A stretch of DNA of 27,859 nucleotides from a virus, in IMG/VR virus record IMGVR_UViG_3300031759_000122, positions 1 to 27,859 of that record. One strand, written 5' to 3'. Both the position numbers and the translations under genes were made by a program. Under the pieces are notes generated by a model that saw only the letters and a list, made by a program, of their open reading frames with translations, was not told where the DNA came from and made no database searches. Below are positions 1-20,076 of this stretch, piece by piece (the first letter of the stretch is position 1; every line of letters begins with the position of its first letter).

Positions 1-595
1 CTTGTAAGTTTGAAAAAGCTTCACTCGATATAGTTAAAGACGTACCATTTGTTATAATTGACGGAAAAAGATTTATACCGTCAAATACCCCTGGGGTGGT
101 TACAGAAACACTAGCTACAGTACCATGAGTAGGGGTAGGGGTAGGAGAAGGATATGGGGCTGTAGGGGTAGGTGTTGGAGTAAGAGATGCACCAGGTGTA
201 CCACTAACACTAGGTGGTGGGGTTACAGTAGGGGTGTTTGTCGGTGTAAATGTTGGAGTAGGACTATGAGTAGGTGGCGGTGTTGGGGTAGGTGTTGGGG
301 TAGAATATAAATTCCTAAATATATTCTTTAAATCGTTACCACCAATACCAACGTTCGGTGTTGTGTTAACAGCAAAATCTGTAGGGTTTGCTATTTGATC
401 GCTAATTACATTAGAACGATCAAACAAATCATTTAAATCATGTTGTATACCACCAGAAAGTACTTTATAACCTGTTACAGGGGCTTGATTTACCCCTGAA
501 TACGGAGCAAATGCAGAAACTAAATCTACATAAGTAGCCGAAGCGCCTTGCACGCCTAGGTTTACATTATAAAGATAACCTGTAGCAGATAACAT
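1..595 (-). CDS. Pro/Thr-repeat virion protein, 3' end cut by the window edge
   Basis: Open frame running off the left edge; 198 residues are visible from the ATG at 595. The start overlaps the stop of the S74 mini-fibre gene (TAATG), which supports the start and suggests translational coupling. Residues 1-95 are an ordinary mixed domain I do not recognise. Residues about 97-160 are a low-complexity linker of TPTP, PPPT and SPTP units. A new ordered segment begins after it and continues beyond the edge. The architecture (small N-terminal domain, PT-rich stalk, C-terminal domain) is the same as in the 590-aa gene two positions upstream, so it is probably a second member of a fibre or decoration set at the end of the tail operon. 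The function is inferred from context only. A computed plus-strand reading at 125-310 is the antisense shadow of the repeat. Confidence 0.75.
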
Positions 596-1167
596 TAGGA
601 TTTAGCTTCAAGAGCTTGTACTCTTAGAGTTAGTTCTTTAATTGCGTTGATTAAAACTGGTACTAACTTACTATAATCTATAGATTCACATTCCCCTACA
701 GGTCCTTTACCTACAGCTTCAGGTATAATTAAATTAACTTGTTCTGCTATTAAACCAATATCATTAGTAATAGGTTTTTCAATCCAATCAAACCTTACAG
801 ATTGTAACTGTTGTACACATGCTAAAGAGTATTCTAAAGGTCTAATATTTGTTTTATATCTTTCAGAAGACTGAGATTGAAAGCCTGTAGCATATATAAT
901 AGCATTACCATCAATTTGTGTACCAGGATTATCTTGGAATCCAGAACCACCAGTTGTAAATGTAACTATATCCCGCGCATTACCAGAAAAATTGGAAACT
1001 ACTGGATAAAAATAGTTAGAGCCGACATTGTTAAAGAAGTCGTTAACAGATATTCTACGACCACCAGCATTACTGCTTTCAATCGGCAAATAGTCTATGT
1101 TCGTACCTTGAATAACAGCTGTATTCGTTAAAGGTAACTGGATAATTCTAATTTGTGGATTTGCCAT
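595..1167 (-). CDS. Mini tail-fibre protein with C-terminal S74 intramolecular chaperone
   Basis: 190 aa. The C-terminal half (about 100-190) matches the Peptidase_S74 intramolecular chaperone autoprocessing domain of phage fibres and endosialidases. It has the hallmark SSERYKTNI at 100-108, aligning with the usual SDxRxKxxI, so Ser100 and Lys105 would be the self-cleavage pair. It continues through DIGLIAEQV (136-144) and a C-terminal helix ([12 protein letters not shown]) that normally forms a trimeric coiled coil. In known members the chaperone folds the fibre trimer and is then released by cleavage before the Ser. Here that would leave only about 99 residues of mature protein. The N-terminus ([24 protein letters not shown]) resembles short fibre-attachment segments. 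A late-type motif AGTAAATA lies 6 bases before the ATG. The S74 call is firm; the fibre role is inferred. Confidence 0.85.
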
Positions 1168-1173
1168 ATATAT

Positions 1174-1181
1174 TATTTACT
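1174..1181 (-). promoter_or_regulatory. Late-type motif AGTAAATA before the S74 mini-fibre
   Basis: Followed by ATATAT and ATG at 1167, with 6-base spacing; same arrangement as at 20069. Confidence 0.5.
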
Positions 1182-1193
1182 AGGTTAGCGTTA

Positions 1194-2966
1194 TTATAAA
1201 CATGTACAACTACCATATGTACGAGTGTTTTCTAGGTTCACTGAACATGTAGCACTTCCAGTTACACCATAGACTGTATCGTAAACGTCGCATCTAGCAG
1301 TGCCATACTGTACTGTATCACCGCATTCCCAACAGAATACTGCTGCAGTAAAGCTTGTAGAACTACTTGAAGGAGAAACTATATTAATATTGCCGTTGTC
1401 TATAGACCAACTATAAGTGTAAGAACCTGAACCACCTCCTACGCTTACAGAGTTAGATGTACTTGCGGTACATTCATTAGTGTTAGTACAAGAACCAATA
1501 GCATCCCCGGTACTCATTGTAACTGTTAAGGATACAGGGGACGGAGTAGGTGTTGTTGTAGAAGCTGGGGTTGGGGTAGGATCAGGAGTGCTAGGTGGTG
1601 TGTTAGGTGGTGTAGAAGCTGGGGTATTAGAAGGTACCGGTGTTGGAGTTGGGGTTGAAGTTGGAGTACTTGCTGGGGTAGAAGTAGGTGTAGATGTCGG
1701 TGTTGAAGCTGGGGTACTTGGAGGTGTTCTTGTAGGTGTAGATGTCGGTGTTGAAGCAGGAGTGTTAGGCGGCGTACTTGGTGGTGTATGAGAAGGCGTT
1801 ACAGAAGAACCAGGGGTTTGAGTAGGTGTTTGCGAAGGTGTTGATGGAGGAGTGCTTGGCGGTGTTGAAGTCGGAGTAGAAGTAGGAGTAGAGGCCGGTG
1901 TACCGGTTGGTGTTACTGTTAAAGTAGGGGTAGGTGTAGCAGTAGCTGTTTGAGAAGGCGGTGGTGTAGGTGTTGGAGTAGATGTCGGAGAAGCAGGCGG
2001 TGTAGAAACCGGTGTTACGCTGTTCGTAGGGGTTAATGTAGGAGTATATGTTACTGAAGGTGTTAACGATATAGTAGGTGTTACTGTAGGTGTATATGTA
2101 GGTGTTACCGTTGGAGTAGAAGTGAAAGTAACGGTCGGGGTAACTGTAGGTGTTGCACCTGGTGTTAAACTTATAGTAGGCGTTACTGCTGGGGTGTTCG
2201 TAACTGAAGGTGTTACAGTAACTGAAGGGGTATGAGTAGAAGTAGGTGTTACCGTTGGAGTAGACGTAAATGTAGGTGTTACTGTTGGGGTATAAGTCGG
2301 GGTAGCAGTTGGCGTTAAAGTCGGTGTAGTTGTAGGTGTTAAAGAAGGGGTAAGAGTAGGGGTGATGGACGGAGTTGGAGTAAGAGATATATTTGGAGAT
2401 AACGGAATATAATTTACTACACCAGCTTGATCTTGAGTGTTAAAGAAAAATGCTTGATTTGTATAGTTAGATAACCCTTCAGCAACAATAATTTGCTTAT
2501 TGTTAGTACCCCATGCTCTATTTTTTAATAAATGAACAGAATCAAAAGAAGCAGGAGCCTGAGGTGTTGTAGCAATAGGGTTATATGTTAACCATGTAGA
2601 ATCTGCTTCTACTAATAGATTATATGTATAAGCTGTAAGACTTGGAAACATTGTAGCCGATACAACTACAGATGTTACAGAAGTACCACTTGCTGTATTA
2701 TAAAATGTCCAAACGAAATTACTTCTACTATCAATACCAGCAGTTGCACCTGTAAGAGCGTCTTGTAAACTACTATACGTGTAGTTACGCGTTATAACCT
2801 TTTGAAAGTTAAAAGCTGATAATATATATGTAATTCTTCCAACAGTGTCATTACCAAAATTAATCGCGCTTGGTTGAAACACAACAGTAAGTGGAGAGTA
2901 ACCTGTTAAAGTTACCAATGGAGAGGCCTGATCTGGCTGCGGAAAATTATATGCTAATACAGACAT
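1194..2966 (-). CDS. Pro/Thr-repeat fibre protein with Cys-rich C-terminal domain
   Basis: 590 aa. Residues 1-189 form a globular N-terminal domain I do not recognise. Residues about 190-478 are almost purely Pro, Thr, Ser and Val in units such as TPTVTPT, TPSVT and PPSTP, an extended stalk that could also be glycosylated. Residues 479-590 are a separate Ig/PKD-like domain. It contains [13 protein letters not shown], reminiscent of SprB-type repeats of Bacteroidota adhesins, and eight cysteines (GSC, NEC, FCWEC, RCD, TCS, SCTC), which suggests disulfides or metal binding outside the cell. The start overlaps the stop of the upstream gene (TAATG). The position downstream of baseplate genes and next to an S74 fibre supports a role in host adhesion; no catalytic motif is seen. 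Confidence 0.8.
1533..2396 (-). repeat. Degenerate minisatellite encoding the Pro/Thr stalk
   Basis: This stretch encodes about 288 residues of Pro/Thr-rich units. At DNA level it is a degenerate array of 6-, 12- and 18-base units (for example gtaggtgttactgt on the plus strand). Near-identical longer blocks recur, such as the one around 1675-1770 that reads as [11 protein letters not shown]. Such arrays change length easily by slippage or recombination, so stalk length may vary between relatives. The repetition also creates long spurious readings on the plus strand (1480-1791). Confidence 0.8.
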
Positions 2967-4465
2967 TAATATTGTACTTTATAGGTAATAAGGTTTAATT
3001 TTTGAGTTTGATATGGAAAACTAATAAATGTAATAACGTAAGTTTGAGTATCCTCGTTATAACAAAATACAGGGGCTTCCATATAACTTACCGTACCTAG
3101 TGGGTAAACATACTCTTTAAATACGTTAGGGTCGGTAGTGTTTGTTGGATAAATTCTAGTTCTATCTTTCGGATTGTTAAGATCAAGTCGATACAATACA
3201 GGTACAACTACACTAGAAAGGCCGTTGTTACCTATAATAGATGTAGAGCCTCCTGTTATAGTGCTTGAAACCAACGTACAAATGGTGATATTATTGTTTA
3301 TATCATCATACCAATTACCACCATAATAAGTTACAGCATTAGGAGAAAGATTACCTATACTACTATTAAAATAATTAGTTAATATGGCATTACTTGCTGT
3401 AGACCCGGCAGATAATGGTAAATAGTTTTGTAGGGATTTTTGTATTGTGTAGGTATTATAATCAAATGTAACCTTTTCGTACAATATAGTACTAGAAAGC
3501 TGTATAACTAACGTATCATAAAACACTTCAAAGTTTACAATATTGTTTGCAGTTAATTGACTATAAATTGTACTATCATATATGTAGTTATTATATATTA
3601 AATTTAAAGCAGATGGCCCTATGTTAATAGTACCATCAACTGTTTTTGTCCACAAAGCTCCAGTAGCAGTAACCATGGAATACATACTGTATGGTCTTGT
3701 AAACGGTTTATATAAACCGTATTGATTACCAAACACATCTGTACACCAAGAGTAAAGCTCTCTTCCTGGGGTAAACACCAAATTGGTTATTCTTTGATTT
3801 AAATTAAAGTAATTAAACTCATCTAAACTGTTAGCACCATTATTTTGGTTCCATATATTTTTATAAGGGCCTTCCCAAAATTCAAAATCATATTCTGCAG
3901 TAACTATACCGTTGTTACTAGATTTTGTGGTTTCATAAAAAGACTGATACGGAACAAATTTTTGATATGTGTCTGTATTAACAACTGTACCGTCATATAG
4001 GTTTGATATACCTATAGCTTTCATCCAGTTGGTATTGGTGTTATGAGTTACTACTTTAGAATCAAGATTGCTACTACCTATCGTAAAGCCTTTATTAAAA
4101 CGTGTTGGATCAATATATCTGTAACCTGTACCTATAGCTACTTGAGTGGAGTCAATACTATATATTATATTTTTAGTTAAATAGATTGACGCACCAAGAT
4201 TACTCGGTACAAAATAACCACCAAGTTGATCGCTCGTAACAATGTTCTCGTTTAATTGGGGTGCAAGTGCAACTGTAGGGTAATACCTGTTTGTTAAATT
4301 AGCAAAAGGAGCAATAGGTATAACGCTAGAAGAAATCAGTCCAGTACTTGTACTAGAAAGTAGATACTCGCTATTACCTAAATACTTCTGAGATAAAGTA
4401 TTTAAATCAGAATTTATTTGGTCTTGTGTAGCAAAACTATCTACAACTGTATTACCGGTATCCAT
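2966..4465 (-). CDS. Structural protein of unknown function in the tail-fibre operon
   Basis: 499 aa; no family recognised. The composition is typical of a phage virion protein: rich in Asn, Thr, Ser, Tyr and Ile, few charges, many short beta-prone segments, no transmembrane segment, signal peptide or catalytic motif. The N-terminus ([23 protein letters not shown]) looks like an attachment helix, followed by what could be beta-propeller or beta-sandwich material. It lies between the collagen-like fibre gene and the PT-repeat fibre gene. It overlaps the latter (TAATG at 2964-2968). A canonical T4-like late box TATAAATA ends 9 bases before its ATG, so the last fibre genes may have their own promoter. 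It is probably a tail-fibre or baseplate-attached protein, on context only. Confidence 0.75.
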
Positions 4466-4474
4466 TAATGATAA

Positions 4475-4482
4475 TATTTATA
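4475..4482 (-). promoter_or_regulatory. Exact T4 late box TATAAATA before the 499-aa gene
   Basis: The only perfect TATAAATA among the start-proximal motifs. It lies in the 26-base gap between the collagen-like fibre and the 499-aa gene, 9 bases before the ATG. Confidence 0.6.
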
Positions 4483-4491
4483 ACCGGTGCA

Positions 4492-6372
4492 TTAACTACC
4501 AACCATTAATTTATAAGTACTTCCAGAAGAATCTTGTATTGTAATATATCCGTTATTGGTAACTGGAGTGTTTACAAATGAACTGTTTAATAGTATATTA
4601 GAAGCACTCAATGTTACCCCAGTTATTGCCCCGCCGGTAATATTAACATTGTTTGCATTTTGTAACGACATACTACCATAAGAAGAAGCTATTGTTATAC
4701 CTCTCATGTTTACAACCACCCCGGTAGTTGTACTTGTAGCTACTAACATTGGTTTGGAAACTTGCCCCACTGTTACAGGTGCTGTAGATGTTAGAGTACC
4801 TGTACTTGTGGGCGATAAGAAGTAGACTGCACCATCTGTTAAACCGGATAAACCTGAAATATAACCATGATATACTATAGTAAATGTGCTACCTGTAGAA
4901 GACTGTACAATGCCAAGTGCTTCAGCATCGGAAGAAGTATCTGCTTCTGCTAATACATAACTACCACCACCAGAAGCTCTTGCAACTACTTGACCGGCAG
5001 AAAAGGAATTTGAGAAAGTAATGGTTTGTATTGTATTACCACCAAACCCGCTATACCCCGATATACCAGAGTAACCAGAAGTTCCTTGACCTGAATACCC
5101 TGAAATACCACTATAACCGGAATACCCAGAAATACCACTAGCAGCATAAGCACCAGGGAGTCCACTATAACCTGAAAAACCTGAAATACCGCTATAGCCA
5201 GAAATGCCACTATAACCGGAATACCCAGAAATACCGCTATAACCAGAGATACCGCTATAACCGGAGTAACCACTAAATCCTGAAATGCCGCTCCATCCAG
5301 AATAACCACTAATACCACTATACCCAGATGTACCTATACCTGAATACCCAGATTTACCAGAGTAACCAGAAACACCTGAACCACTAAATCCTGAAATACC
5401 ACTATACCCGGATGTACCTATACCTGAATAACCGGACGCCCCAGAAACACCTTGCCCTATAGGTGTACGTACCACTGTAAACACTGAACTACCATTATAC
5501 TGATAGGCAGCTGTAATTGGTGAAACGCTTGACGTATAAGCAGAAACCTGTAATAGTATTCTATCAGTAGAAGATAGAGTAGTAATACTTGATGTGGCGT
5601 AAGAAACTTTTTGATACGTAGAAGTAGTATCATTCACTGCTCCACTATCGGCACTTAAAATAAAAGTACCAGTAGAACTAGTGGTCATTGAATATGTATA
5701 TATGCTAAATACAAAATTTGCTGAACCACCCAGCACATAACGATAAAATTCAACATCCCACAAACCAGCGGGTATCTCTGTCACTCCCGGTTCTCCAATT
5801 GGTGTTAGGTACCAACCAAATGCAGTCACCCCGGCGCTAGAAGTAATTATAGCATAATCATCATTAATTGTCGAGCCACCACCGCCTGGCTGTAAAGCCA
5901 TTACTTCATATAAAGCAGGGTTTTGATCGCTGTTAACCTCTTGTAAAAAATATGTTCTACCATAAACAGATGCTCCAACTTGTCCGCTAAAGCCTGAATA
6001 ACCGCTAGGGCCACTATAACCGGAGTAACTAGAGTAACCACTATATCCAGAATAGCTTGAATAACCACTATATCCAGAATAGCTTGAATAACCGCTGTAA
6101 CCGGAATAGCTAGAGTAACCACTATATCCAGACCAACCTGACGTACCAGAATAACCAGAAGTACCCGAGCCAGAATAACCAGACCAACCCGATATACCTG
6201 ATCTACCAGAATAACCAGACCAACCTGAGTTTCCATTACTACCATTTGCTCCTGCCGGGCCAGAATAACCACTGTAACCGGAGTAGGTACCACTAAAACC
6301 ACTCTTACCAGAGTAACCACTGGTACCAGCGCTATTAACTAACATTGATGTATCTACTTTTACTAATGCCAT
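4492..6372 (-). CDS. Collagen-like tail fibre protein with Gly-X-Ser repeats
   Basis: 626 aa in alternating domains. Residues about 16-133 and 310-444 are collagen-type tripeptide arrays, mostly G-Y-S, G-I-S, G-W-S and G-F-S, with local 9-residue units containing YSSYSGYSG. Between them (about 134-309) is a globular, probably beta-sandwich domain beginning YGRTYFL. After the second array comes a C-terminal domain (about 445-626) of a type common in phage fibres: SFSAGQVVARASGG, then LGIVQSS, then LTDGAVYFLSPT and a quickly varying tail. Phage collagen-like segments form triple helices and trimerise fibres. Here Pro is almost absent and Ser is fixed in the third position, unlike animal collagen. 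The gene follows the 333-aa gene by 4 bases, in the baseplate and fibre operon. Two long readings in other minus frames (4986-5318, 5901-6320) are shadows of the repeats. Confidence 0.88.
   Translation of the reverse strand: MALVKVDTSMLVNSAGTSGYSGKSGFSGTYSGYSGYSGPAGANGSNGNSGWSGYSGRSGISGWSGYSGSGTSGYSGTSGWSGYSGYSSYSGYSGYSSYSGYSGYSSYSGYSGYSSYSGYSGPSGYSGFSGQVGASVYGRTYFLQEVNSDQNPALYEVMALQPGGGGSTINDDYAIITSSAGVTAFGWYLTPIGEPGVTEIPAGLWDVEFYRYVLGGSANFVFSIYTYSMTTSSTGTFILSADSGAVNDTTSTYQKVSYATSSITTLSSTDRILLQVSAYTSSVSPITAAYQYNGSSVFTVVRTPIGQGVSGASGYSGIGTSGYSGISGFSGSGVSGYSGKSGYSGIGTSGYSGISGYSGWSGISGFSGYSGYSGISGYSGISGYSGYSGISGYSGISGFSGYSGLPGAYAASGISGYSGYSGISGYSGQGTSGYSGISGYSGFGGNTIQTITFSNSFSAGQVVARASGGGSYVLAEADTSSDAEALGIVQSSTGSTFTIVYHGYISGLSGLTDGAVYFLSPTSTGTLTSTAPVTVGQVSKPMLVATSTTTGVVVNMRGITIASSYGSMSLQNANNVNITGGAITGVTLSASNILLNSSFVNTPVTNNGYITIQDSSGSTYKLMVGS
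5041..5445 (-). repeat. Second Gly-X-Ser (collagen-like) coding array
   Basis: Encodes residues 310-444 of the fibre. The plus strand shows recurrent 9- and 18-base units such as ccagaaataccgctata. The array is interrupted by ASGAS, LPGAYAAS and QGTS, which may be kinks or registration points in a triple helix. Confidence 0.8.
5974..6327 (-). repeat. First Gly-X-Ser (collagen-like) coding array with 27-base tandem units
   Basis: Encodes residues 16-133 of the fibre. Around 6015-6130 a 27-base unit (starting aataaccactatatccaga) is repeated about four times with few changes. Each unit encodes nine residues of the YSGYSSYSG type. Near-identity between neighbouring copies points to recent duplication or homogenisation. 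Confidence 0.8.
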
Positions 6373-7382: not shown

Positions 7383-9791
7383 TTAATTTATTAAACCCAA
7401 TCCTTTATGTATATAGTAACTAAAGATTTTTTCTAAAGTACCACCATCGTTAACCCAAGCAGCATGGGAAGAAGCCTGTTCAGATAAAGTCGTCAGCGGG
7501 TCATCCCAGTTAACTAACCCAGCTACCTGTTGTTGATTAGTAACAGGACTATATACAAAGAAACGATAATTGTATTGTACTGGCGTCTTTAATCCCCAAC
7601 CATAAAACGCACTTAACGGATATGTTGTTAAAGGATAAGAAGATAAAGGATAAGCGGTTGTTGGTAAAAAGTTTTGCAGATTGCGGGCTGTTATAGATGC
7701 ATACGATGTAATTGCAGGTACTTCTAATAACTCGTAATATTGAGAGTTAAACATATCATTAACCACTATCTTTTGTCCTGCAGATACCATTGTCGTGCTT
7801 ATATTGTATTCGGTTAATATTCCTCCTAAATTAGGAAAACCAGCACTTAAAGTAAAGTTACGGGCATCTTGAGAACGTGCACCCCACACTCTACTTTGTT
7901 GTACTGAATACAAATCATAAATTTTACCTAACCCTGGCGGTATGTTAGTATAATTAAAGTCATTAAGATTTAAATCTAACATTTCTGACAAAGAGTAAAA
8001 TTGATTTACGTTTGATGTGAGCGGGTCTGAAGTGTTTTCTACAAAGTTAGTTATTTTTTCGTATAGCACCCCACCAAACGTATCTTCATTAGTTGCACTA
8101 GTACCTGCAATAGCAGATAAATAATCATTAAAAAATACTGTATTTTGAGCAATTGTTGGTTGTAATGCGTAGGATTTTAATTGAGCACCGAAATCAAAAC
8201 CAGCTCCAAATTTACGTGCAAAATAAGTACTATTAAAATCTACAATGTCAAATTGCGGACTATAACCTGAAAAATGCTGACTGTATTTTACACTAGTTAT
8301 TGTATTTGTAAGGGTGTAAGGGTAGAACCCTGATACAGGGTTTGCAGTCAAATCGTTTACATAATACAAGCCCGATATTGCTGTACTGTAGAGATAGGAT
8401 TCAGCAGTACCAGCAGTTACATATGGTGTAAAAGCTGCTATATAAAACCCGCTGTTAAAGGCTACACTATTAAGGGTGTATGCAAATGTTTGTAAATCGT
8501 AAGAAGTATTGTATGTGTTTATTACACCACTAACAGGGGTTTCAAAATATATTTGTACGTTGCCTTGACCGCTTGGAGAAAATGTAATCGTAAATAAAGG
8601 AGCCCCACTTAAAATGTTTAATGGATAATTTAATAAAGGAGTATCTGAAAGGTAAGAATTTGTACCTGTTAAAACAGGGCTGTTAATTGTCATTACAAAC
8701 CTACTAGATACCCCGGACCAATATGTACTTTCAAAAGGTACTTTACCGTTTAATGTAAAATCTATATGGTCTGGAATTAAACTCTGTACGTAATAATAAG
8801 CAGATAAGCTTACTGCTGTATTAGCATAGGCTGGAGTGTCTATGTAATCGTAATCTCTAGCAGGCGGGTTAGGTATATTTAAAGTGTCTAAATTTACCCA
8901 TAATGTAGTAGGGTTTACGTAAGAACTAGAAACACTATTTACAACCATTGAAGGTAAGTCGTCTACATAGTAAAAATTAAATGAGCCAGATAAACCTACT
9001 TGTGTTCCTGAAGATGAAGGACGTCCATTATTATCAATTAATACCGGAGTACTGCTTATTGGTTGGTAGTTTAATAAAACAACTTCATTATCTAAAGAGG
9101 TTGCAGAAGCCGATGTAAATCTCCACCTTGGTCGTAAATTAATTAATTGACCATCAGGTACTTCTGTCCAAGGCTGAGATAAAGAATTATCAGCATAAAA
9201 AGTGAAATTAATGTTATTATTGTCCTGTAAACTAGTAAAATAATTTATTGTTAAAGGTACTGGTCCAGCTGAATTACCTGAATAATTAGATTGATAACCG
9301 TAAAACGTATAAATGTCGGTTGAAGGTATAGAAGTAGGAGTACCTGAAGATAACCACCCACTGGTAGACCAGTATAATTTATCTACAATAAAATTACTAG
9401 CTGTTACTGTTGTAGAAAACGTAAAAGGGTTAACACCAGCACGAGTGGTGAGTATCCAGTTAGCGTTATCTACGTTCACATCAAGAGAAGATGTTGGGTT
9501 TGCACCTGTAGAGAGATCTCCTGGATTATTATTATATAAACCTATTTTTATTTCATAAACTCCAGGCCAGTTATAAGTGTGGGTCGGAGCATATTCTGTA
9601 CTATATGTACCATCCCCGAACCACCAAATAATGTTATAATTTGAAGTTATTGCAGCTTCAGTTATACCGGGCTGAGCACTTAAAGCACATGTAAAAGGAG
9701 TAGCTAGGGTAAAACCGCTTAATGGATTAGCTGTTAACCCACTAACAGTAATACCATAAAATGCACTTAGCGGTATTAACGAAATAGCCAT
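7383..9791 (-). CDS. Large baseplate-region protein with N-terminal PKD domain
   Basis: 802 aa. A PKD (Ig-like) domain is visible at about 20-105, with the signature WWFGDG at 56-61, HTY at 71-73 and PGVYEIKIG at 76-84. The remainder is Ser/Thr/Tyr/Asn-rich, apparently beta-rich material with no catalytic motif. A PLSAFYG motif occurs near both ends (residues 8-13 and close to the C-terminus). The last 60 residues (VNWDDPLTTLSEQASSHAAW...IFSYYIHKGLG) look like a conserved docking tail. It follows gp6 with 1 base between stop and start, the position of gp7 in T4. It may be the gp7-like baseplate wedge component or a protein replacing it. The PKD call is good; the baseplate role is by context. 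Confidence 0.78.
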   Translation of the reverse strand: MAISLIPLSAFYGITVSGLTANPLSGFTLATPFTCALSAQPGITEAAITSNYNIIWWFGDGTYSTEYAPTHTYNWPGVYEIKIGLYNNNPGDLSTGANPTSSLDVNVDNANWILTTRAGVNPFTFSTTVTASNFIVDKLYWSTSGWLSSGTPTSIPSTDIYTFYGYQSNYSGNSAGPVPLTINYFTSLQDNNNINFTFYADNSLSQPWTEVPDGQLINLRPRWRFTSASATSLDNEVVLLNYQPISSTPVLIDNNGRPSSSGTQVGLSGSFNFYYVDDLPSMVVNSVSSSYVNPTTLWVNLDTLNIPNPPARDYDYIDTPAYANTAVSLSAYYYVQSLIPDHIDFTLNGKVPFESTYWSGVSSRFVMTINSPVLTGTNSYLSDTPLLNYPLNILSGAPLFTITFSPSGQGNVQIYFETPVSGVINTYNTSYDLQTFAYTLNSVAFNSGFYIAAFTPYVTAGTAESYLYSTAISGLYYVNDLTANPVSGFYPYTLTNTITSVKYSQHFSGYSPQFDIVDFNSTYFARKFGAGFDFGAQLKSYALQPTIAQNTVFFNDYLSAIAGTSATNEDTFGGVLYEKITNFVENTSDPLTSNVNQFYSLSEMLDLNLNDFNYTNIPPGLGKIYDLYSVQQSRVWGARSQDARNFTLSAGFPNLGGILTEYNISTTMVSAGQKIVVNDMFNSQYYELLEVPAITSYASITARNLQNFLPTTAYPLSSYPLTTYPLSAFYGWGLKTPVQYNYRFFVYSPVTNQQQVAGLVNWDDPLTTLSEQASSHAAWVNDGGTLEKIFSYYIHKGLGLIN

Positions 9792-14800: not shown

Positions 14801-15373
14801 ATGAATCCTCCGTTACCGGATAATAAGCCATCAGATAATCAACAGATAATAGATCAAATAGATGATTTTATTGACGGTTTAAATATAACTAAAGAGGAAC
14901 CACAAGCAACTTCTGAAACAGTTACAATTCCAATTAATGTACCTAAAACACCAGAAGATATGCAAGCTTTTGTGTTGCAACACTCAGCAGGTTTGGTAGA
15001 AAACAGTGTTAAAAGCATAATGGAATTACAAAAATTGACAGTGGCTACCGGTGACCCGGAAATGATGGCTGGTTTGGCTAGTTTAATTGCTGCAAGTACC
15101 GGTGCTATAGAAACAGTTAATAAAATACATTTACAGCATAAAAAGGCTGAAACCATTAAAGAGGTTAAGAAAATTGAAATAGAAGGCAAGAAAGAAATAC
15201 AAAAACTTAAAAATGATGGGTATCTTAACTTGCCAGCTGGTCAAACAAACATACTAGTAGCTACTAGAGAAGAAATTATAGCACAATTAACTGGTAAGGC
15301 TAAAGCTAAAGCAGTAGAAACTAATGTTATTGAACTGTCGGCGTCTGAACAGATTGTGGTGCCTGCTGTTTAG
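14801..15373 (+). CDS. Probable terminase small subunit, gp16-like
   Basis: 190 aa. The layout resembles T4 gp16 (164 aa): an acidic disordered N-terminus, a central helical hairpin (about 55-130: HSAGLVENSVKSIMELQKL, then GDPEMMAGLASLIAASTGAIETVNKIHLQHKK) and a charged helix. Near the C-terminus is a segment QTNILVATREEIIAQL (147-162), comparable to the QMNIQNATVFMGSPTELM region of gp16. In T4, gp16 forms rings that recognise DNA and stimulate the gp17 packaging motor. No large terminase is present here, so the gene is apart from its usual partner. It is alone on the plus strand and its 3' end overlaps the end of the opposite lipoprotein gene by 47 bases. The assignment rests on pattern memory, not on a search. 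Confidence 0.55.
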   Translation: MNPPLPDNKPSDNQQIIDQIDDFIDGLNITKEEPQATSETVTIPINVPKTPEDMQAFVLQHSAGLVENSVKSIMELQKLTVATGDPEMMAGLASLIAASTGAIETVNKIHLQHKKAETIKEVKKIEIEGKKEIQKLKNDGYLNLPAGQTNILVATREEIIAQLTGKAKAKAVETNVIELSASEQIVVPAV

Positions 15374-16295
15374 TGATTTTATCCTTTACAGCTTTATAGT
15401 GAGCGTTAATTAACATTAATAGCACTAAACCACCTATTACAGCACCTACTACCCACATAGGTATAGTAGCAGCTACATAGGCTAAACCTAAAGAAGCTAA
15501 GCATCCGATACCCAAAGTCACACTCTTTAATAGTACTGCGAGTATTAAGAATAAAATACCTACACCTACTAAAGCTTTAATAATGTAACCAAGCATTTCT
15601 GCTTTTTGATTAGCTTTAGCAATTTCAACTTGATCAGCAGTATCTTTTTTAATTTTTTCTAATTGAGCTTTTTGTTCAGCTTCTAGTTTATTAATAGTTA
15701 AACGCTGTTCTTCTCTAATTTGCTGTTTTTCTTTTTCTTTTTGCTCTATAAGAGCCTCGGCTTTATCTAAATCAGCTTTTTGACTAATAGCTAACTCTAC
15801 ACTAGCGTTATACTTTTCATATAATTGATCAATTGTCTTAGTTTTTTCATCATCTACCTCTTTGGCTATTTTTGCTTTATCTTCTACAGATAATTTATCT
15901 GTTCGAGCTAAAATCTCTTTTGCTCTTAAATGAGCTACAAGAGTATTAATGTCTTGTTTCTTTTTCTCTTGAGTAACTATATAAATTCCGTAATCTAGCG
16001 CTCCAATCTTAGCAAAGTTTTCATCGTCTTTCTTTTTAGCGTCATCATACGCTTTTTGTAAATCAGCTCTAAATTTTGCATACTGTAATTCTAATTGATT
16101 GCGTGTATCATCAACCTTTTTATTGGCTTCAGCCATTTGATCGACTTGCTTGACTGTATTTTCTGCTTTGACTACAGCTGCAGCAGATGTAGTGGTGTCA
16201 ACTTTGTCAGGGTTTAATTTAAACCCTAATTTAGGAAACCCAACACACCCTGCAAAGAATAAAGATGCCAACGCTACTACGAAATACTTTTTCAT
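15327..16295 (-). CDS. Phage lipoprotein with long coiled coil and C-terminal membrane segments
   Basis: 322 aa from the chosen ATG. A GTG at 16310 would add five residues. The ATG gives a clean MKK start with a hydrophobic core and lipobox FFAGC (lipidated Cys17), and a GGTAAGTA motif lies 5 bases upstream. A polar region follows, then a long charged helix rich in K, E, Q and A (about 60-230, probable coiled coil). Two or three hydrophobic segments come next (GYIIKALVGVGILFLILAVLL, TLGIGCLASLGLAYVAATI, WVVGAVIGGLVLLMLINA) and a short polar tail. A lipid-anchored N-terminus plus C-terminal membrane helices suggests an envelope-spanning protein. It could act in lysis, superinfection exclusion or envelope remodelling; none is proven. 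It follows the ferredoxin-like gene directly (TAGTG) and overlaps the opposite small-terminase gene. Confidence 0.72.
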   Translation of the reverse strand: MKKYFVVALASLFFAGCVGFPKLGFKLNPDKVDTTTSAAAVVKAENTVKQVDQMAEANKKVDDTRNQLELQYAKFRADLQKAYDDAKKKDDENFAKIGALDYGIYIVTQEKKKQDINTLVAHLRAKEILARTDKLSVEDKAKIAKEVDDEKTKTIDQLYEKYNASVELAISQKADLDKAEALIEQKEKEKQQIREEQRLTINKLEAEQKAQLEKIKKDTADQVEIAKANQKAEMLGYIIKALVGVGILFLILAVLLKSVTLGIGCLASLGLAYVAATIPMWVVGAVIGGLVLLMLINAHYKAVKDKITKQQAPQSVQTPTVQ

Positions 16296-16300
16296 AAAAG

Positions 16301-16308
16301 TACTTACC
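16301..16308 (-). promoter_or_regulatory. Late-type motif GGTAAGTA before the lipoprotein
   Basis: Fits NNTAARTA, 5 bases before the ATG at 16295. It lies just inside the end of the preceding gene. It helps choose ATG 16295 over GTG 16310 and may allow the lipoprotein to be expressed late and apart from the RNR genes. Confidence 0.4.
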
Positions 16309-16309
16309 A

Positions 16310-16504
16310 CTATCTAATGTGTTTAAAGTGATCAATAATTTTTTGTACATCGGATTCACAATAACTACATCTATCTGCACAATGGCAATATTGCTGCAGA
16401 TCTTTGATCGTTTTTATATCTTCATGTTTATCAACAAGATGTATAATCTCTTTAAATGAAACGTTATTGCAAACACAGTGTGTGCCGTCTAATTCAAGAC
16501 TCAT
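16310..16504 (-). CDS. BFD-like [2Fe-2S] ferredoxin, stand-alone
   Basis: 64 aa. Cysteines at 10, 12, 46 and 49 give C-x-C-x33-C-x2-C, the spacing of the BFD-type [2Fe-2S] fold (bacterioferritin-associated ferredoxin and the matching domains of NirB and NasB). The typical surrounding helices are present (CVCNNVSFKEIIHLVDKH; TIKDLQQY; YCESDVQKIIDHF). Two more cysteines (40, 42) lie just before the second pair. In bacteria BFD releases iron from bacterioferritin by passing electrons to it. Here the start overlaps the NrdA stop (TAATG), so it is made with the ribonucleotide reductase. It could donate electrons to the NrdB metal centre or NrdA, or mobilise host iron for NrdB; these are inferences. 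The fold call rests on cysteine spacing and length. Confidence 0.75.
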   Translation of the reverse strand: MSLELDGTHCVCNNVSFKEIIHLVDKHEDIKTIKDLQQYCHCADRCSYCESDVQKIIDHFKHIR

Positions 16505-18156
16505 TAGGATTCACAACTAGCACAAGATAGTATTGAACGTGCAAGCTCCTGTGCAGGGTTAGCTGAACGTTGATAGTAAAGACTCTTAATACCGTTTTCC
16601 CAAGCAAATACTATTAGTTCGTTGACATCTTTTGGTTTAGTGTTAGGTGGAATCATTAGGTTTAATGATTGACCTTGATCAATATACTTTTGACGAGCTG
16701 CAGCTTGAATTACTATTTCTTTTTGGCTAATTTCGCCGAAAGTTTTGAATACAGCCTTTTCTTCTGGGGTAAGAAACTCTAAGTGTTGTACAGAACCACC
16801 TTTTACGAGAATGGACTTCCAAACGCCTTCTGTATTCTTCTTCTTTGTTTCAAGTAAAGCTTCAAGATAAGGGTTCTTATACGTAAACTTACCTTTAGCT
16901 AAGTCTTTTACAAAGTAGTTAGAGTTGAGAGGCTCAACTGAAGGAGAAGCTTGACCGAGAATAAACGAACTGGAGGTAGTAGGTGCTACGGCAAGTGTAG
17001 TTACATTGCGGCGACCGTAACCTTTGAGTAAAGGTGGTTCACCGTATTCTACAGCCATTTGAGCGGTAGCAGCATCTGCTTTCTTACGAACAAAGCTCCA
17101 TATCTGAGTATTAAGTAGCTTTGCTTCCATTGTCTCAAACCCAATCATCTTAGATTGAAGATATGTATGCCAACCAAGAGCACCAATACCGAGTGCTCGC
17201 TGATTAATAGCGAAGTTTCTTGGATGTACCATAAACTTCATCTTTTCGGTCTTATTAATAAACTCGGTCATTACAGCATCAAGGAAGTATACTAATGTTT
17301 CTACTGCATCGGTATTCTTCCAGTTGTCCCACTGCTCAAAGTTAAGAGAAGACAAATCACAAACGAACGATTCTTCATTGTCGTTTGATAGCATAATCTC
17401 CGTACAGAGATTGCTTTGATTAATCTTAATGTTCTTGTCTTTGTATACTTGTGGTGCCTGGTTGTTAGCGTTATCAGTAAAGAAGATATAAGGATAACCA
17501 GACTCGAAACGCTTTTTAATAACTAAACCCCAAATACGACGCTTTTCTTTATCACCATCAAGCATAGACTTTAACCATTCATCAGTAACACAAACACCAA
17601 TAGAAAGGTTTTGAATATCATCACCTTCACCTTTAATCTTTAAAAACTCTTCAATATCTTTATGATCAACAGGTAAATACGCTGCAAACGAACCACGGCG
17701 TACATTACCTTGTGAAATATAATCTGTTAATGATTCAAATACAGTTAACTGATGATGTACACCGGTAGATTCGCCACCGGACGAGATAGGTGCACCACGA
17801 GGACGTATTTTACCGAAGTAAGCAGATGTACCACCGCCGGCTTTTGACATAGTACCTATTTCTGAAATCTTATACAGAATAGCGTCCATATCATCGTCAA
17901 TGTATGAACCGAAACAGGAAATAGGTAATCCACGTTTACGGCCAAAGTTTGACCATATAGGAGAAGCTAAGGAGTAGAATCCTTGATGCATATAGCTTTC
18001 AAACTTATCTGCAAAGCCTTTTAACTTAAGATAATCTTCAGCTGTTTCAGCTATATCTCTTATACGCTTTTCGGCAGTCTCTCCATCTAGAAGATAACCA
18101 CGTTCAAGGAATTTGCGGGAGTCGCTATTTAACCAGTAAATGTTCTTGTTACTCAT
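16504..18156 (-). CDS. nrdA: Class I ribonucleotide reductase large subunit (NrdA), short form without ATP cone
   Basis: 550 aa against about 760 in E. coli. Catalytic residues are all present: Cys81 (PISCF) and Cys266 (FVCDLSSLN) as the redox pair; Asn249, Cys251 and Glu253 in NLCTE, the thiyl-radical finger loop; and Tyr527-Tyr528 (SLYYQRS) for radical transfer. The C-terminal CASC at 545-548 is the swinging thiol pair reduced by thioredoxin or glutaredoxin. The protein begins about 140 residues later than the E. coli enzyme relative to the first active-site Cys, so the N-terminal ATP-cone that senses dATP is missing and overall activity is presumably not shut off by dATP. It converts ribonucleoside diphosphates to deoxy forms for phage DNA. 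NrdB is immediately upstream (26 bases) and the BFD-like gene overlaps downstream. Confidence 0.96.
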   Translation of the reverse strand: MSNKNIYWLNSDSRKFLERGYLLDGETAEKRIRDIAETAEDYLKLKGFADKFESYMHQGFYSLASPIWSNFGRKRGLPISCFGSYIDDDMDAILYKISEIGTMSKAGGGTSAYFGKIRPRGAPISSGGESTGVHHQLTVFESLTDYISQGNVRRGSFAAYLPVDHKDIEEFLKIKGEGDDIQNLSIGVCVTDEWLKSMLDGDKEKRRIWGLVIKKRFESGYPYIFFTDNANNQAPQVYKDKNIKINQSNLCTEIMLSNDNEESFVCDLSSLNFEQWDNWKNTDAVETLVYFLDAVMTEFINKTEKMKFMVHPRNFAINQRALGIGALGWHTYLQSKMIGFETMEAKLLNTQIWSFVRKKADAATAQMAVEYGEPPLLKGYGRRNVTTLAVAPTTSSSFILGQASPSVEPLNSNYFVKDLAKGKFTYKNPYLEALLETKKKNTEGVWKSILVKGGSVQHLEFLTPEEKAVFKTFGEISQKEIVIQAAARQKYIDQGQSLNLMIPPNTKPKDVNELIVFAWENGIKSLYYQRSANPAQELARSILSCASCES

Positions 18157-18182: not shown

Positions 18183-19154
18183 TTAAAATAAATCGTCTTC
18201 TGAAAAGCTTTGGGACTTTTTAGAGTACTCTACAGGACGAGAATGGAAGAAGTCAGTCATATTGTTACCGAGTAATTCTTCGTTAAACCAGGATGTATCT
18301 TTGAGAAGCTTAGAATCCGTTTCATACGCCTCTGGAAAACCAATACCCTTGAGAGATTCATTGATACGATCCTTTACGAACTCTTTAAGATGAGCTGCAG
18401 TTAATCCGTCTTCATTAATACCATTAACCATCCAGTCAATAATCTTTGCTTCGCTTTCATATGCTTCTTTAGCTTCAGCAAGAATTCTTTCTGTAAGCTC
18501 TTCATCAAAGAGTTCTGGGTGTTCTTCTCTAATAGTGTTAATAATCTTCATACCAACAAGAGCATGAATATGCTCTTCGTTACGAGTGTATTTAACCTGT
18601 TGATCAGTATCCTTAAGCAGATTCTTATTACGTGCAAACCAGTTAATAATGTAGAACTGGCTCATAAGAGAAACGTTCTCTACAAACAACGTAAAGAGTA
18701 TAATAGCATAAAGATATTGTTTCTTTTTATCTTTATAATAACGATGTGTATACTTTTTAAGATATTTTACACGACCCTGTATCCATTCCAGTTTAAGGTT
18801 CTCTTCAAACACATCTTCAAGACCAAGTACAGTAAGCAATCTTTCATAAGCATTGTTATGTATTACCTCTGTATTAGCCATTACATAACCAAGATCCTGT
18901 AAGGATGGGTGTGGCAAGTTTTCACCGAGCTTAGCCCAGAACGTTTTTACAGCCACTTCAATCTGACCAATAGCGGATAAAGTACGGATAATAATCTCTC
19001 TTTCTTGATCATTTAACTTAACTTTAAACTGCTGTACGTCTGATTTAAAGCTGAACTCTTTATGAGTCCAAAAACCATTGTGCATGGATTCGATAAATTC
19101 CTCTGTCCAAGGATAGTGATTAGGTTTACGAGAGATTTGTTCGTCGAAGATCAT
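18183..19154 (-). CDS. nrdB: Class I ribonucleotide reductase small subunit (NrdB)
   Basis: 323 aa. The dinuclear metal site reads Glu66 (QIEVAVKTFW), Glu96 and His99 (NTEVIHNNAY), Glu159 (FVENVSLMSQF), and Glu194 and His197 (EEHIHALVG). Tyr103 is at the radical position (four after His99), so a tyrosyl radical is expected. The first ligand is Glu where E. coli has Asp84. By memory the spacing is that of the Flavobacterium johnsoniae type enzyme (class Id, dimanganese). The C-terminus (SFSEDDLF) is the acidic, aromatic-ended tail that docks on NrdA. The subunit generates the radical used by NrdA. A CGTAAATA motif lies 25 bases upstream. It heads the NrdB-NrdA-BFD-lipoprotein group. Confidence 0.96.
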   Translation of the reverse strand: MIFDEQISRKPNHYPWTEEFIESMHNGFWTHKEFSFKSDVQQFKVKLNDQEREIIIRTLSAIGQIEVAVKTFWAKLGENLPHPSLQDLGYVMANTEVIHNNAYERLLTVLGLEDVFEENLKLEWIQGRVKYLKKYTHRYYKDKKKQYLYAIILFTLFVENVSLMSQFYIINWFARNKNLLKDTDQQVKYTRNEEHIHALVGMKIINTIREEHPELFDEELTERILAEAKEAYESEAKIIDWMVNGINEDGLTAAHLKEFVKDRINESLKGIGFPEAYETDSKLLKDTSWFNEELLGNNMTDFFHSRPVEYSKKSQSFSEDDLF

Positions 19155-19267: not shown

Positions 19268-20047
19268 TTAGTTTTTCTTATTATACAATTCTAGTTTTTT
19301 TACAATGTATCGTACAATCTCGCTTCGTACGATATCAGCTTCTGTCAACGTAAAGACATGGATACCCATTTCTCGGCTTTCATTATCATTAAAAACGTTA
19401 CACATTTTTTCAAATCCAGATTTACCATTAATATCGGATTGCATTGGGTCTCCGCAAACAAAAAGCTTGCTAAATTGTCCAACACGAGTCATTAAAGTTG
19501 TAAGCTCTCTAAATGTACTGTTTTGTGCTTCGTCCATAATGATAGCTTTAGCATTCCAAGAAAGCCCACGAAGATAACCTGTTGGTTTACCTTCAATACG
19601 GTTTTCTTTCATTAAAGTATTAATATCAGATTTGCAAAGTAATTCATCGAGTTTTTCCATTAACGGTTCAAGATATGGGGTCAGTTTTTCGTTTGCGTCT
19701 CCTGGGAGATATCCCATTTTATTATCTGAACTCTCAACGATACTACGAATATATATTAAGTCAGAAACCTTTTTTAGGTTCAATAATTCCAAAGCAACCA
19801 GTGTTGCTAAGAAGCTTTTACTACTGCCCGATGGCCCTGTGATAAAAACAATCTTAGTGTGGTTGTCTAAAGCTAGTTTAAGAAATTCTTTTTGTTTATT
19901 TGTCAAATCCGGCCTCTGTCGGATTTGCACTGGTCTTTCTAATTTATCACCTTGATGTACTATAAGACTTTTGTCTTTTGTAACATTATTGTTGTTGTTA
20001 TTGTTTTGAGATTGCTTCTGTTTTAACAAACGCTTTTTTTTACTCAT
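19268..20047 (-). CDS. phoH: PhoH-like P-loop ATPase
   Basis: 259 aa from the ATG at 20047. A longer reading from 20071 adds eight residues but leaves 11 bases to the divergent gene, whereas 20047 has AGTAAGTA 7 bases upstream like other genes here. After a Lys/Gln- and Asn-rich tail (seven Asn in a row) comes the PhoH ATPase: LTNKQKEFLKLAL, a Walker A variant GPSGSSKS (about 71-78, Ser in place of the Gly before Lys), IYIRSIVESSDNKMGYLPGD, Walker B AIIMDEAQNS (about 168-177), and VCGDPMQSDI. PhoH proteins are common in T4-like and marine phages. Their role is unsettled; RNA helicase or nuclease-linked functions and phosphate stress have been proposed. Here it lies upstream of the RNR genes. 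Confidence 0.92.
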   Translation of the reverse strand: MSKKKRLLKQKQSQNNNNNNNVTKDKSLIVHQGDKLERPVQIRQRPDLTNKQKEFLKLALDNHTKIVFITGPSGSSKSFLATLVALELLNLKKVSDLIYIRSIVESSDNKMGYLPGDANEKLTPYLEPLMEKLDELLCKSDINTLMKENRIEGKPTGYLRGLSWNAKAIIMDEAQNSTFRELTTLMTRVGQFSKLFVCGDPMQSDINGKSGFEKMCNVFNDNESREMGIHVFTLTEADIVRSEIVRYIVKKLELYNKKN

Positions 20048-20054
20048 CTGTAGA

Positions 20055-20062
20055 TACTTACT
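20055..20062 (-). promoter_or_regulatory. Late-type motif AGTAAGTA before phoH
   Basis: Fits NNTAARTA, 7 bases before ATG 20047. It is used here to prefer this start over ATG 20071. Confidence 0.45.
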
Positions 20063-20068
20063 ACAAAA

Positions 20069-20076
20069 CATAAATA
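20069..20076 (+). promoter_or_regulatory. Late-type motif CATAAATA before the DUF6321-like gene
   Basis: Followed by ATATAT and then ATG at 20083, a spacing of 6 bases identical to that at 14787 and 1174. Confidence 0.55.

Follow-up and report, generated by a model that had tools for sequence, protein, structure and literature searches.

A divergent BFD-type protein encoded directly behind nrdA in phages with a class Id-like ribonucleotide reductase

Introduction

Small redox proteins encoded with ribonucleotide reductase (RNR) genes are known from several systems. YfaE of Escherichia coli (b2236) is a plant-type ferredoxin specified by the final gene of the class Ia RNR operon, its start coinciding with the last base of nrdB (2348514), and NrdI is the flavodoxin-like activase of class Ib enzymes. 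A further small protein, Bfd of E. coli (b3337; family PF04324, Fer2_BFD), is encoded beside the bacterioferritin gene bfr. The present study concerns a gene for a 64-aa BFD-type protein located directly behind nrdB and nrdA (positions 16310–16504, minus strand) in the virus record IMGVR_UViG_3300031759_000122; the 27,859 bases analysed are referred to as the window.

The protein resembles Bfd in its CxC...CxxC ligands and its size, but its gene lies beside nrdA instead of bfr, the spacing between the two cysteine pairs is 33 residues against 32 in E. coli Bfd, Cys40 and Cys42 are additional, the glycine of the CGxC motif is missing and the residue at the bacterioferritin-docking position varies within the family. 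With YfaE it shares the character of a small ferredoxin-type protein encoded last in a class I RNR operon, and the one-base overlap of yfaE with nrdB recurs in the TAATG junction of the phage clade to which the window belongs (clade A, below); however, the phage protein matches BFD and not the plant-type Fer2 domain, follows nrdA and not nrdB, and accompanies an RNR that appears to be of class Id and not Ia. NrdI belongs to an unrelated protein family and is comparable in the role proposed below, i.e. redox help for a dimanganese NrdB. As to the RNR itself, Flavobacterium johnsoniae, Leeuwenhoekiella blandensis and Facklamia ignava have class Id enzymes that share the Glu/Lys/Tyr/Thr set of NrdB and an NrdA without ATP cone, whereas the bacterial loci of this type examined lack the BFD gene described here. 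BFD genes in phages are already known: the annotation of Klebsiella phage FBKp34 includes one, and both this phage and KP13-16 encode a BFD-domain protein within about 2 kb of an RNR gene, the class III nrdG. Those proteins differ in being canonical (CLC, CGKC), in lying several genes away from nrdG and in their association with an anaerobic RNR. Searches of the open-licence PMC literature turned up no description of a phage BFD gene linked to an RNR, class Id included.

Sequence and predicted structure of the BFD-type protein

Inspection of the open reading frame (ORF) at 16310–16504 confirmed what a preliminary description of this DNA had reported, namely a 64-aa protein with the pattern C-x-C-x33-C-x2-C that follows NrdB and NrdA and whose start overlaps the nrdA stop codon in the string TAATG. 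This junction (16502–16506, minus strand) has a reinitiation geometry, the TAA of nrdA (16504–16506) and the ATG of the BFD gene (16502–16504) having one base in common. The cysteines are C10-x-C12-x33-C46-x2-C49, with two more at positions 40 and 42. Fer2_BFD was the only Pfam family to exceed its cut-off (31.4 bits, cut-off 26, E 2.4e-7); the plant-type Fer2 domain (PF00111) did not reach it, and glutaredoxin (PF00462) and NrdI (PF07972) domains gave no match at E ≤ 1. All 19 distinct family members scanned matched Fer2_BFD at E ≤ 0.01, and this was the sole Pfam family common to them. The BFD-type identity given in the preliminary description thus holds for the domain but does not extend to orthology with Bfd, because the window protein scored only 21.5 bits against the Bfd equivalog of NCBIfam (NF007803), below the cut-off of 75. 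A profile comparison with E. coli Bfd aligned 48 columns (probability 74.8%, E 2.6e-5), and identity to that protein was 23%. The window protein is best described as a divergent BFD-type protein that presumably holds a [2Fe-2S] cluster. A match to PtuB (PADLOC; residues 34–63, 17.1 bits), a short CxxC similarity, was dismissed as chance, as were matches to ATG5, DUF7833 and Ral.

The four ligand cysteines were invariant, and their spacing constantly 33, in all 20 distinct members of the family. Cys42, four residues ahead of the third ligand, was likewise found in 20/20 and Cys40 in 19/20 of them, while neither occurred in any of 16 comparator stretches, which comprised E. coli Bfd and phage and bacterial BFD domains after removal of repeats from overlapping loci, several being paired domains of one protein. 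The position of Cys42 is taken in the comparators by V, L, A, T or N (V, L or A in 13 of the 16). The residue that separates the cysteines of the first pair corresponds to Leu5 of Pseudomonas aeruginosa Bfd, a hotspot of docking to bacterioferritin (Bfr) at which the Bfds of one comparison are stated to have Leu, Ile or Val (PMC12363616) and that is S5 in the protein of Brucella (PMC13136788). At this position 7 of the 20 family members, the window protein included, have V, another 7 have S, 3 have T, and N, G and Y occur once each.

An AlphaFold2 model based on 19 sequences (pLDDT 79, pTM 0.62) was three-helical, with predicted helices at residues 17–26, 33–36 and 47–63, so that a helix follows each cysteine pair, which we take to be the arrangement of Bfd as well. 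The structural comparison with BFD suggested in the preliminary description, in which a zinc-binding fold would have counted against the idea, produced no convincing match in the PDB. Neither the single protein nor the family profile retrieved a Bfd chain in sequence searches of the PDB.

The associated ribonucleotide reductase

The large subunit of the partner enzyme (nrdA, 16504–18156, minus strand, 550 aa) scored 743.9 bits against TIGR02510 (NrdE-prime; cut-off 602.25), its top PDB matches were 6dqx and 6dqw, and no ATP cone was listed in the Pfam scan. These two PDB matches suggest that class Id NrdAs belong to TIGR02510. The C-terminal cysteine pair of NrdA, C545-x2-C548, was invariant in an alignment of nine sequences. 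For the small subunit (nrdB, 18183–19154, minus strand, 323 aa) the top PDB matches were 6sf4, 5olk and 6cwo, presumably class Id structures from L. blandensis and F. johnsoniae, which is consistent with the papers cited in this section. The features that define class Id are the pairing of a Tyr with a Glu, a Lys within an unwound helix and a Thr holding the Tyr (PMC8463856). The corresponding set, E66, K70, Y103 and T190, was present in the window NrdB and in all 52 distinct viral NrdBs; in 80 other distinct NrdBs, from genome-collection and named-phage loci, Glu, Tyr and Thr occurred in 80 and Lys in 79. Judged by these residues, the RNR of the window phage appears to be class Id-like. This assignment and the NrdE-prime type of NrdA are additions to the preliminary description.

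The class Id enzymes studied are described as relying on Mn2(IV,III) and lacking a tyrosyl radical, as being activated by superoxide that is taken from the surroundings without a helper protein, and as lacking an adjacent NrdI (PMC8463856; PMC6754362); the second of these accounts calls the assembly in vivo still to be elucidated (PMC6754362). Since the window NrdB carries all four residues of a subclass that uses manganese in its studied members, the earlier suggestion that the small protein mobilises iron for the NrdB centre loses its basis. As to the electron-donor role that had been suggested beside it, rebuilding a diferric-tyrosyl centre would not be its natural form for the same reason, whereas the idea of a YfaE-like donor survives and is the one favoured below.

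Linkage to nrdA, selection and exchange

Searches of IMG/VR with the window protein found 23 contigs, a family profile found 32 (these 23 included), and a further one, locus L048, was reached via nrdA. In each of these 33 contigs the BFD gene lies immediately downstream of nrdA, of which four contigs (L003, L007, L015 and L016) hold just the 3' part. This linkage bears out the view that the phage RNR has a BFD-type accessory gene of its own. The gene is under purifying selection: the ratio of nonsynonymous to synonymous substitutions (dN/dS, NG86) was below 1 in all 74 usable pairs (median 0.16, range 0.06–0.49) of a set of 18 rows, from which the window was omitted as equal to L001 and in which 79 of 153 pairs were excluded with dS outside 0.05–2 or undefined. 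Because the gene occupies the same place in 33/33 contigs and is constrained in this way, the ORF is not a product of chance.

A non-redundant set of 66 related nrdA loci was drawn from the best 80 of the nrdA matches listed and the BFD loci by keeping those in which nrdA matched to residue 545 on the plus strand and removing copies equal over 400 bases around the stop; BFD was present in 23 of them. The nrdA tree was made from a separate set, its size of 66 being coincidental, of near-complete nrdA genes without identical sequences, 22 of them with BFD. On this tree the presence of BFD required at least 6 changes, 4 of which are forced by well supported branches; shuffling presence 500 times gave a mean of about 18.5 changes, and never as few as 6. 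Over 14 carriers the nucleotide distances of BFD and nrdA were correlated (Spearman 0.68; 0 of 2000 permutations as high).

The relatives that carry the linked gene form two phage clades, which differ in the flanking genes on both sides while keeping the unit nrdB-nrdA-BFD (four clade B loci and L001). In clade A, which includes the window, the unit is followed, where the contig reaches, by 0 to 4 cargo genes, a lipoprotein gene, dUTPase and the clamp loader, while in clade B (four loci) it is preceded by small ORFs and followed, after an Hsp20-like gene in L056, by an opposite-strand ORF of 778–836 aa. BFD precedes all cargo in the six clade A loci that have both (L011, L013, L017, L019, L021 and L023) and likewise stands ahead of the cargo in L056. 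Among carriers the TAATG overlap is found in clade A only; clade B carriers have a probable GTG start 11 or 23 bases past the nrdA stop, and in L048 the BFD start overlaps nrdA. The string alone is no marker of the gene, because the non-carrier L025 also has TAATG at its nrdA stop. In seven related non-carriers (L025, L026, L027, L029, L031, L037 and L038) a cargo gene begins 8–28 bases past the last nrdA sense codon, and in others an Hsp20-like or lipoprotein gene is next to nrdA. Whole-record searches gave a single BFD match for each of 11 carrier records, but none for 13 records of non-carriers, which measured up to 199 kb. No BFD contigs were added when the L048 protein and clade B NrdA (best 80 of 127 matches) served as queries.

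Redox genes in related records and other phages

Partner genes were sought in 26 related virus records of 13–199 kb, 13 of them BFD carriers, many being fragments and none rated complete. Ferritin, NrdI, plant-type ferredoxin (Fer2) and glutaredoxin were found in 0/26, the last in a search that detected the control phage RcXuper; thioredoxin was found in one record, a non-carrier, and in 0/13 carriers. With NrdI, plant-type ferredoxin and glutaredoxin all absent from the 26 records, no alternative donor candidate was seen in the carriers. Matches to Pyr_redox_2 (PF07992, FAD/NAD-binding; ferredoxin reductase) in three records were all below the cut-off and were not used; they concern ORFs of ~500 aa in G001, G004 and G005 (the records of L002, L017 and L020) and are confined to BFD carriers among the 26.

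Six named phages with an NrdE-prime type NrdA were chosen by hand among the first 60 entries of a list of 2465. A glutaredoxin gene directly follows nrdA in Atu_ph07, Phosso and DSS3P8 and lies one gene further on in RcXuper; redox helpers therefore do occur beside nrdA, in four of the six phages. A Staphylococcus phage has thioredoxin ahead of nrdB, and in a Sporosarcina phage no redox helper is annotated within the stretch shown. The glutaredoxin gene of Agrobacterium phage Atu_ph07 (L122:5648–5884; PF00462, 52.4 bits) is annotated there as "hypothetical". No Cys-rich small ORF follows nrdA in 70 of 94 non-redundant phage-type loci. Small rubredoxin- or zinc-ribbon-like proteins, all below Pfam cut-offs, are encoded soon after nrdA in L128, L265, L266 and L282; these CxxC...CPFCG proteins lie at L128:3776–3973, L265:2122–2322, L266:7847–8047 and L282:5283–5486, the Pfam scan having covered L128, L265 and L282.

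Possible functions

We favour for the protein, tentatively and with somewhat less than even confidence, a role as a [2Fe-2S] carrier of divergent BFD type that is made with, and dedicated to, the class Id RNR of the phage, in which it would be the one-electron partner of NrdB. Electrons would pass from a host ferredoxin or NAD(P)H reductase to the BFD-type protein and from it, in single-electron transfers, to NrdB, where inactive oxidised manganese centres would be reduced back to Mn2(II,II), and/or superoxide or electrons would be supplied for rebuilding the active Mn2(IV,III) state. The protein presumably binds NrdB, and electrons presumably flow in this direction. Its role for class Id would then be the counterpart of that of YfaE for the class Ia enzyme of E. 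coli and of NrdI for class Ib. A reduced [2Fe-2S] protein could itself produce superoxide; the cluster of a true Bfd is described as stable in O2 for an hour and as damaged chiefly by peroxide (PMC12363616). In a more specific form of this idea, which we consider fairly unlikely, phages have evolved an Fe-S activase for class Id, a BFD-type protein with an extra invariant cysteine that would generate superoxide at the manganese centre of NrdB or donate electrons there. It would be the first dedicated activase known to us for class Id, which was described as having none.

An RNR helper is preferred to iron release because the gene keeps its place in two genome contexts and has a class Id partner, and also because of the nrdB/yfaE layout of E. 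coli and the response of one infected host: with each of two unrelated phages, no host genes other than nrdA, nrdB and the ferredoxin gene of their operon are reported to be over-expressed throughout the infection (PMC7082346). The Fer2_BFD match with its invariant ligand cysteines, the purifying selection, the position of BFD ahead of other cargo, the lack of another donor candidate in the carriers and the redox helpers beside nrdA in named phages also speak for the favoured role. A small Fe-S-type gene linked to class Id nrdBA is a concrete, expressible candidate helper for a phage that needs fast DNA synthesis. If the favoured role is correct, small redox proteins of unrelated families (plant-type ferredoxin, NrdI, glutaredoxin and BFD) would have joined RNR operons repeatedly.

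A number of observations weigh against this role. The CGxC glycine is absent from 20/20 family members and present in 14/16 comparators. Foldseek gave 9 matches in the PDB, none at E ≤ 0.001, and VIA-align 2, run on 40 chains, gave a best Z of 4.7 (adeno-associated virus Rep helicases), with no Bfd chain in either case, although for or against a Bfd fold such comparisons of a 64-residue model are weak evidence either way. The gene is lacking from 43 of the 66 non-redundant related loci, and the hotspot behind nrdA also takes up other cargo. Among the 9 carriers of clade A the distances of BFD and nrdA were uncorrelated (Spearman -0.33; 1916 of 2000 permutations as high), which indicates that BFD recombines between nrdA alleles inside the clade. 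By profile and by CxC/CxxC pattern, BFD was found directly after nrdA in 0/80 bacterial class Id-type loci, some of which end a few hundred bases past nrdA and one of which (L128) is possibly phage, and only 6 of 22 bacterial genomes with this RNR type have any BFD domain. A pyridine-nucleotide reductase exceeded its cut-off in 0/26 of the related records. Finally, class Id NrdB is reported to be activated in vitro without an activase, and its cofactor to be turned readily into Mn2(II,II) by three-electron reduction (PMC8463856), so that a dedicated reductase may be unneeded.

The glutaredoxin genes near nrdA in the named phages point to a different task, in which the cluster together with Cys40 and Cys42 would re-reduce C545-x2-C548 of NrdA after each turnover, i.e. 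stand in for a glutaredoxin. The occurrence of the two cysteines in this family and in none of the comparators would suit such a task, as would the lack of glutaredoxin from the 26 records and of thioredoxin from the carriers. However, a [2Fe-2S] carrier transfers one electron, and known ferredoxin-driven disulfide reduction relies on a special [4Fe-4S] enzyme. The 13 records without BFD have no glutaredoxin either, host redoxins seeming to serve them; the absences come mostly from fragmentary records, and Cys42 may be mere core packing, given the V, L or A of most comparators. We regard this task as rather unlikely. It is unlikely too that BFD is only mobile cargo that gains from nrdA expression without acting on the RNR. 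The changing gene sets, or none, between nrdA and the lipoprotein gene, the repeated changes on the nrdA tree and the uncorrelated distances in clade A would be expected of cargo, but BFD always comes first, even ahead of other cargo, it is single in the 11 carrier records and absent from the 13 non-carrier records searched whole, and clade B keeps it in a different context.

The invariant Cys42 and the lost CGxC glycine would also be compatible with a small zinc protein on a BFD-derived frame that would act on the RNR as an adaptor or a regulator and carry no electrons; the PtuB similarity, the lack of a PDB fold match and the zinc-ribbon- or rubredoxin-like proteins near the same place in some other phages point the same way. 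Against it stand the four BFD ligand cysteines with their constant spacing and the match of every scanned member to Fer2_BFD, which make a zinc protein improbable. The function of cellular Bfd, docking to host bacterioferritin and release of iron for the RNR or for host enzymes during infection, appears slightly less probable still. It is suggested by the BFD-type domain, by the profile match to E. coli Bfd and by the much closer Bfds near class III RNR genes in Klebsiella phages FBKp34 and KP13-16. The window protein, however, is far below the Bfd equivalog cut-off and of low identity to E. coli Bfd, the docking position is V in just 7 of 20 members, the S5 of Brucella Bfd notwithstanding, ferritin is absent from the related records and the partner RNR looks manganese-dependent; the host bacterioferritin partner named in the preliminary description is accordingly weakly founded.

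Neighbouring genes and minor observations

The minus-strand run of the window consists of phoH (19268–20071), nrdB, nrdA, the BFD-type gene and a lipoprotein-like gene (15327–16310; LFFAGC lipobox by eye), in that order. The last of these is the right-hand border of the variable island of clade A and is not thought to be part of the RNR module. The exchange island between nrdA and the lipoprotein gene (L011, L017, L019, L021, L023 and L025–L033) holds Hsp20-like, glycosyltransferase-like and other genes, labelled by eye.

Nine ORFs near bacterial nrdA genes fitted a loose CxC/CxxC pattern; none directly follows nrdA, and by eye they are not BFD. L128, a contig filed under Flavobacteriales, may be phage DNA. 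In L271 a HiPIP-like protein (7671–7883; PF01355, 21.3 bits, cut-off 22) is encoded directly after a class Id-type nrdA; it was considered as a parallel redox partner but set aside, its N-terminus resembling those of further small proteins encoded by these phages and, presumably, a capsid-targeting peptide.

With three family members as tblastn queries, 50,697 cultured-phage records gave no convincing match (one query none at E ≤ 1, the others E about 7–10). With E. coli Bfd as query 15 records matched, among them Bfds of Klebsiella and Stenotrophomonas phages; six of these 15 regions were inspected. Canonical Bfd-like ORFs were seen in Klebsiella phages FBKp34 (L222) and KP13-16 (L223) and in Stenotrophomonas phage RAS14 (L224), without a gene annotation in the latter two. 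The other matches were rejected as host-DNA-like (contigs of Salmonella, one of Acinetobacter in which bfd adjoins bfr, and the unannotated Y5) or as nitrite-reductase-like genes.

Elsewhere the window encodes a major head protein, a head protease, baseplate wedge subunits, a clamp loader and dUTPase besides PhoH, a set of head, baseplate and clamp-loader genes that we take to be T4-like. The long proteins encoded at positions 1–6372 contain repeats that are Thr/Pro-rich or of SGYSG type, and by eye are likely tail fibre or adhesin proteins.

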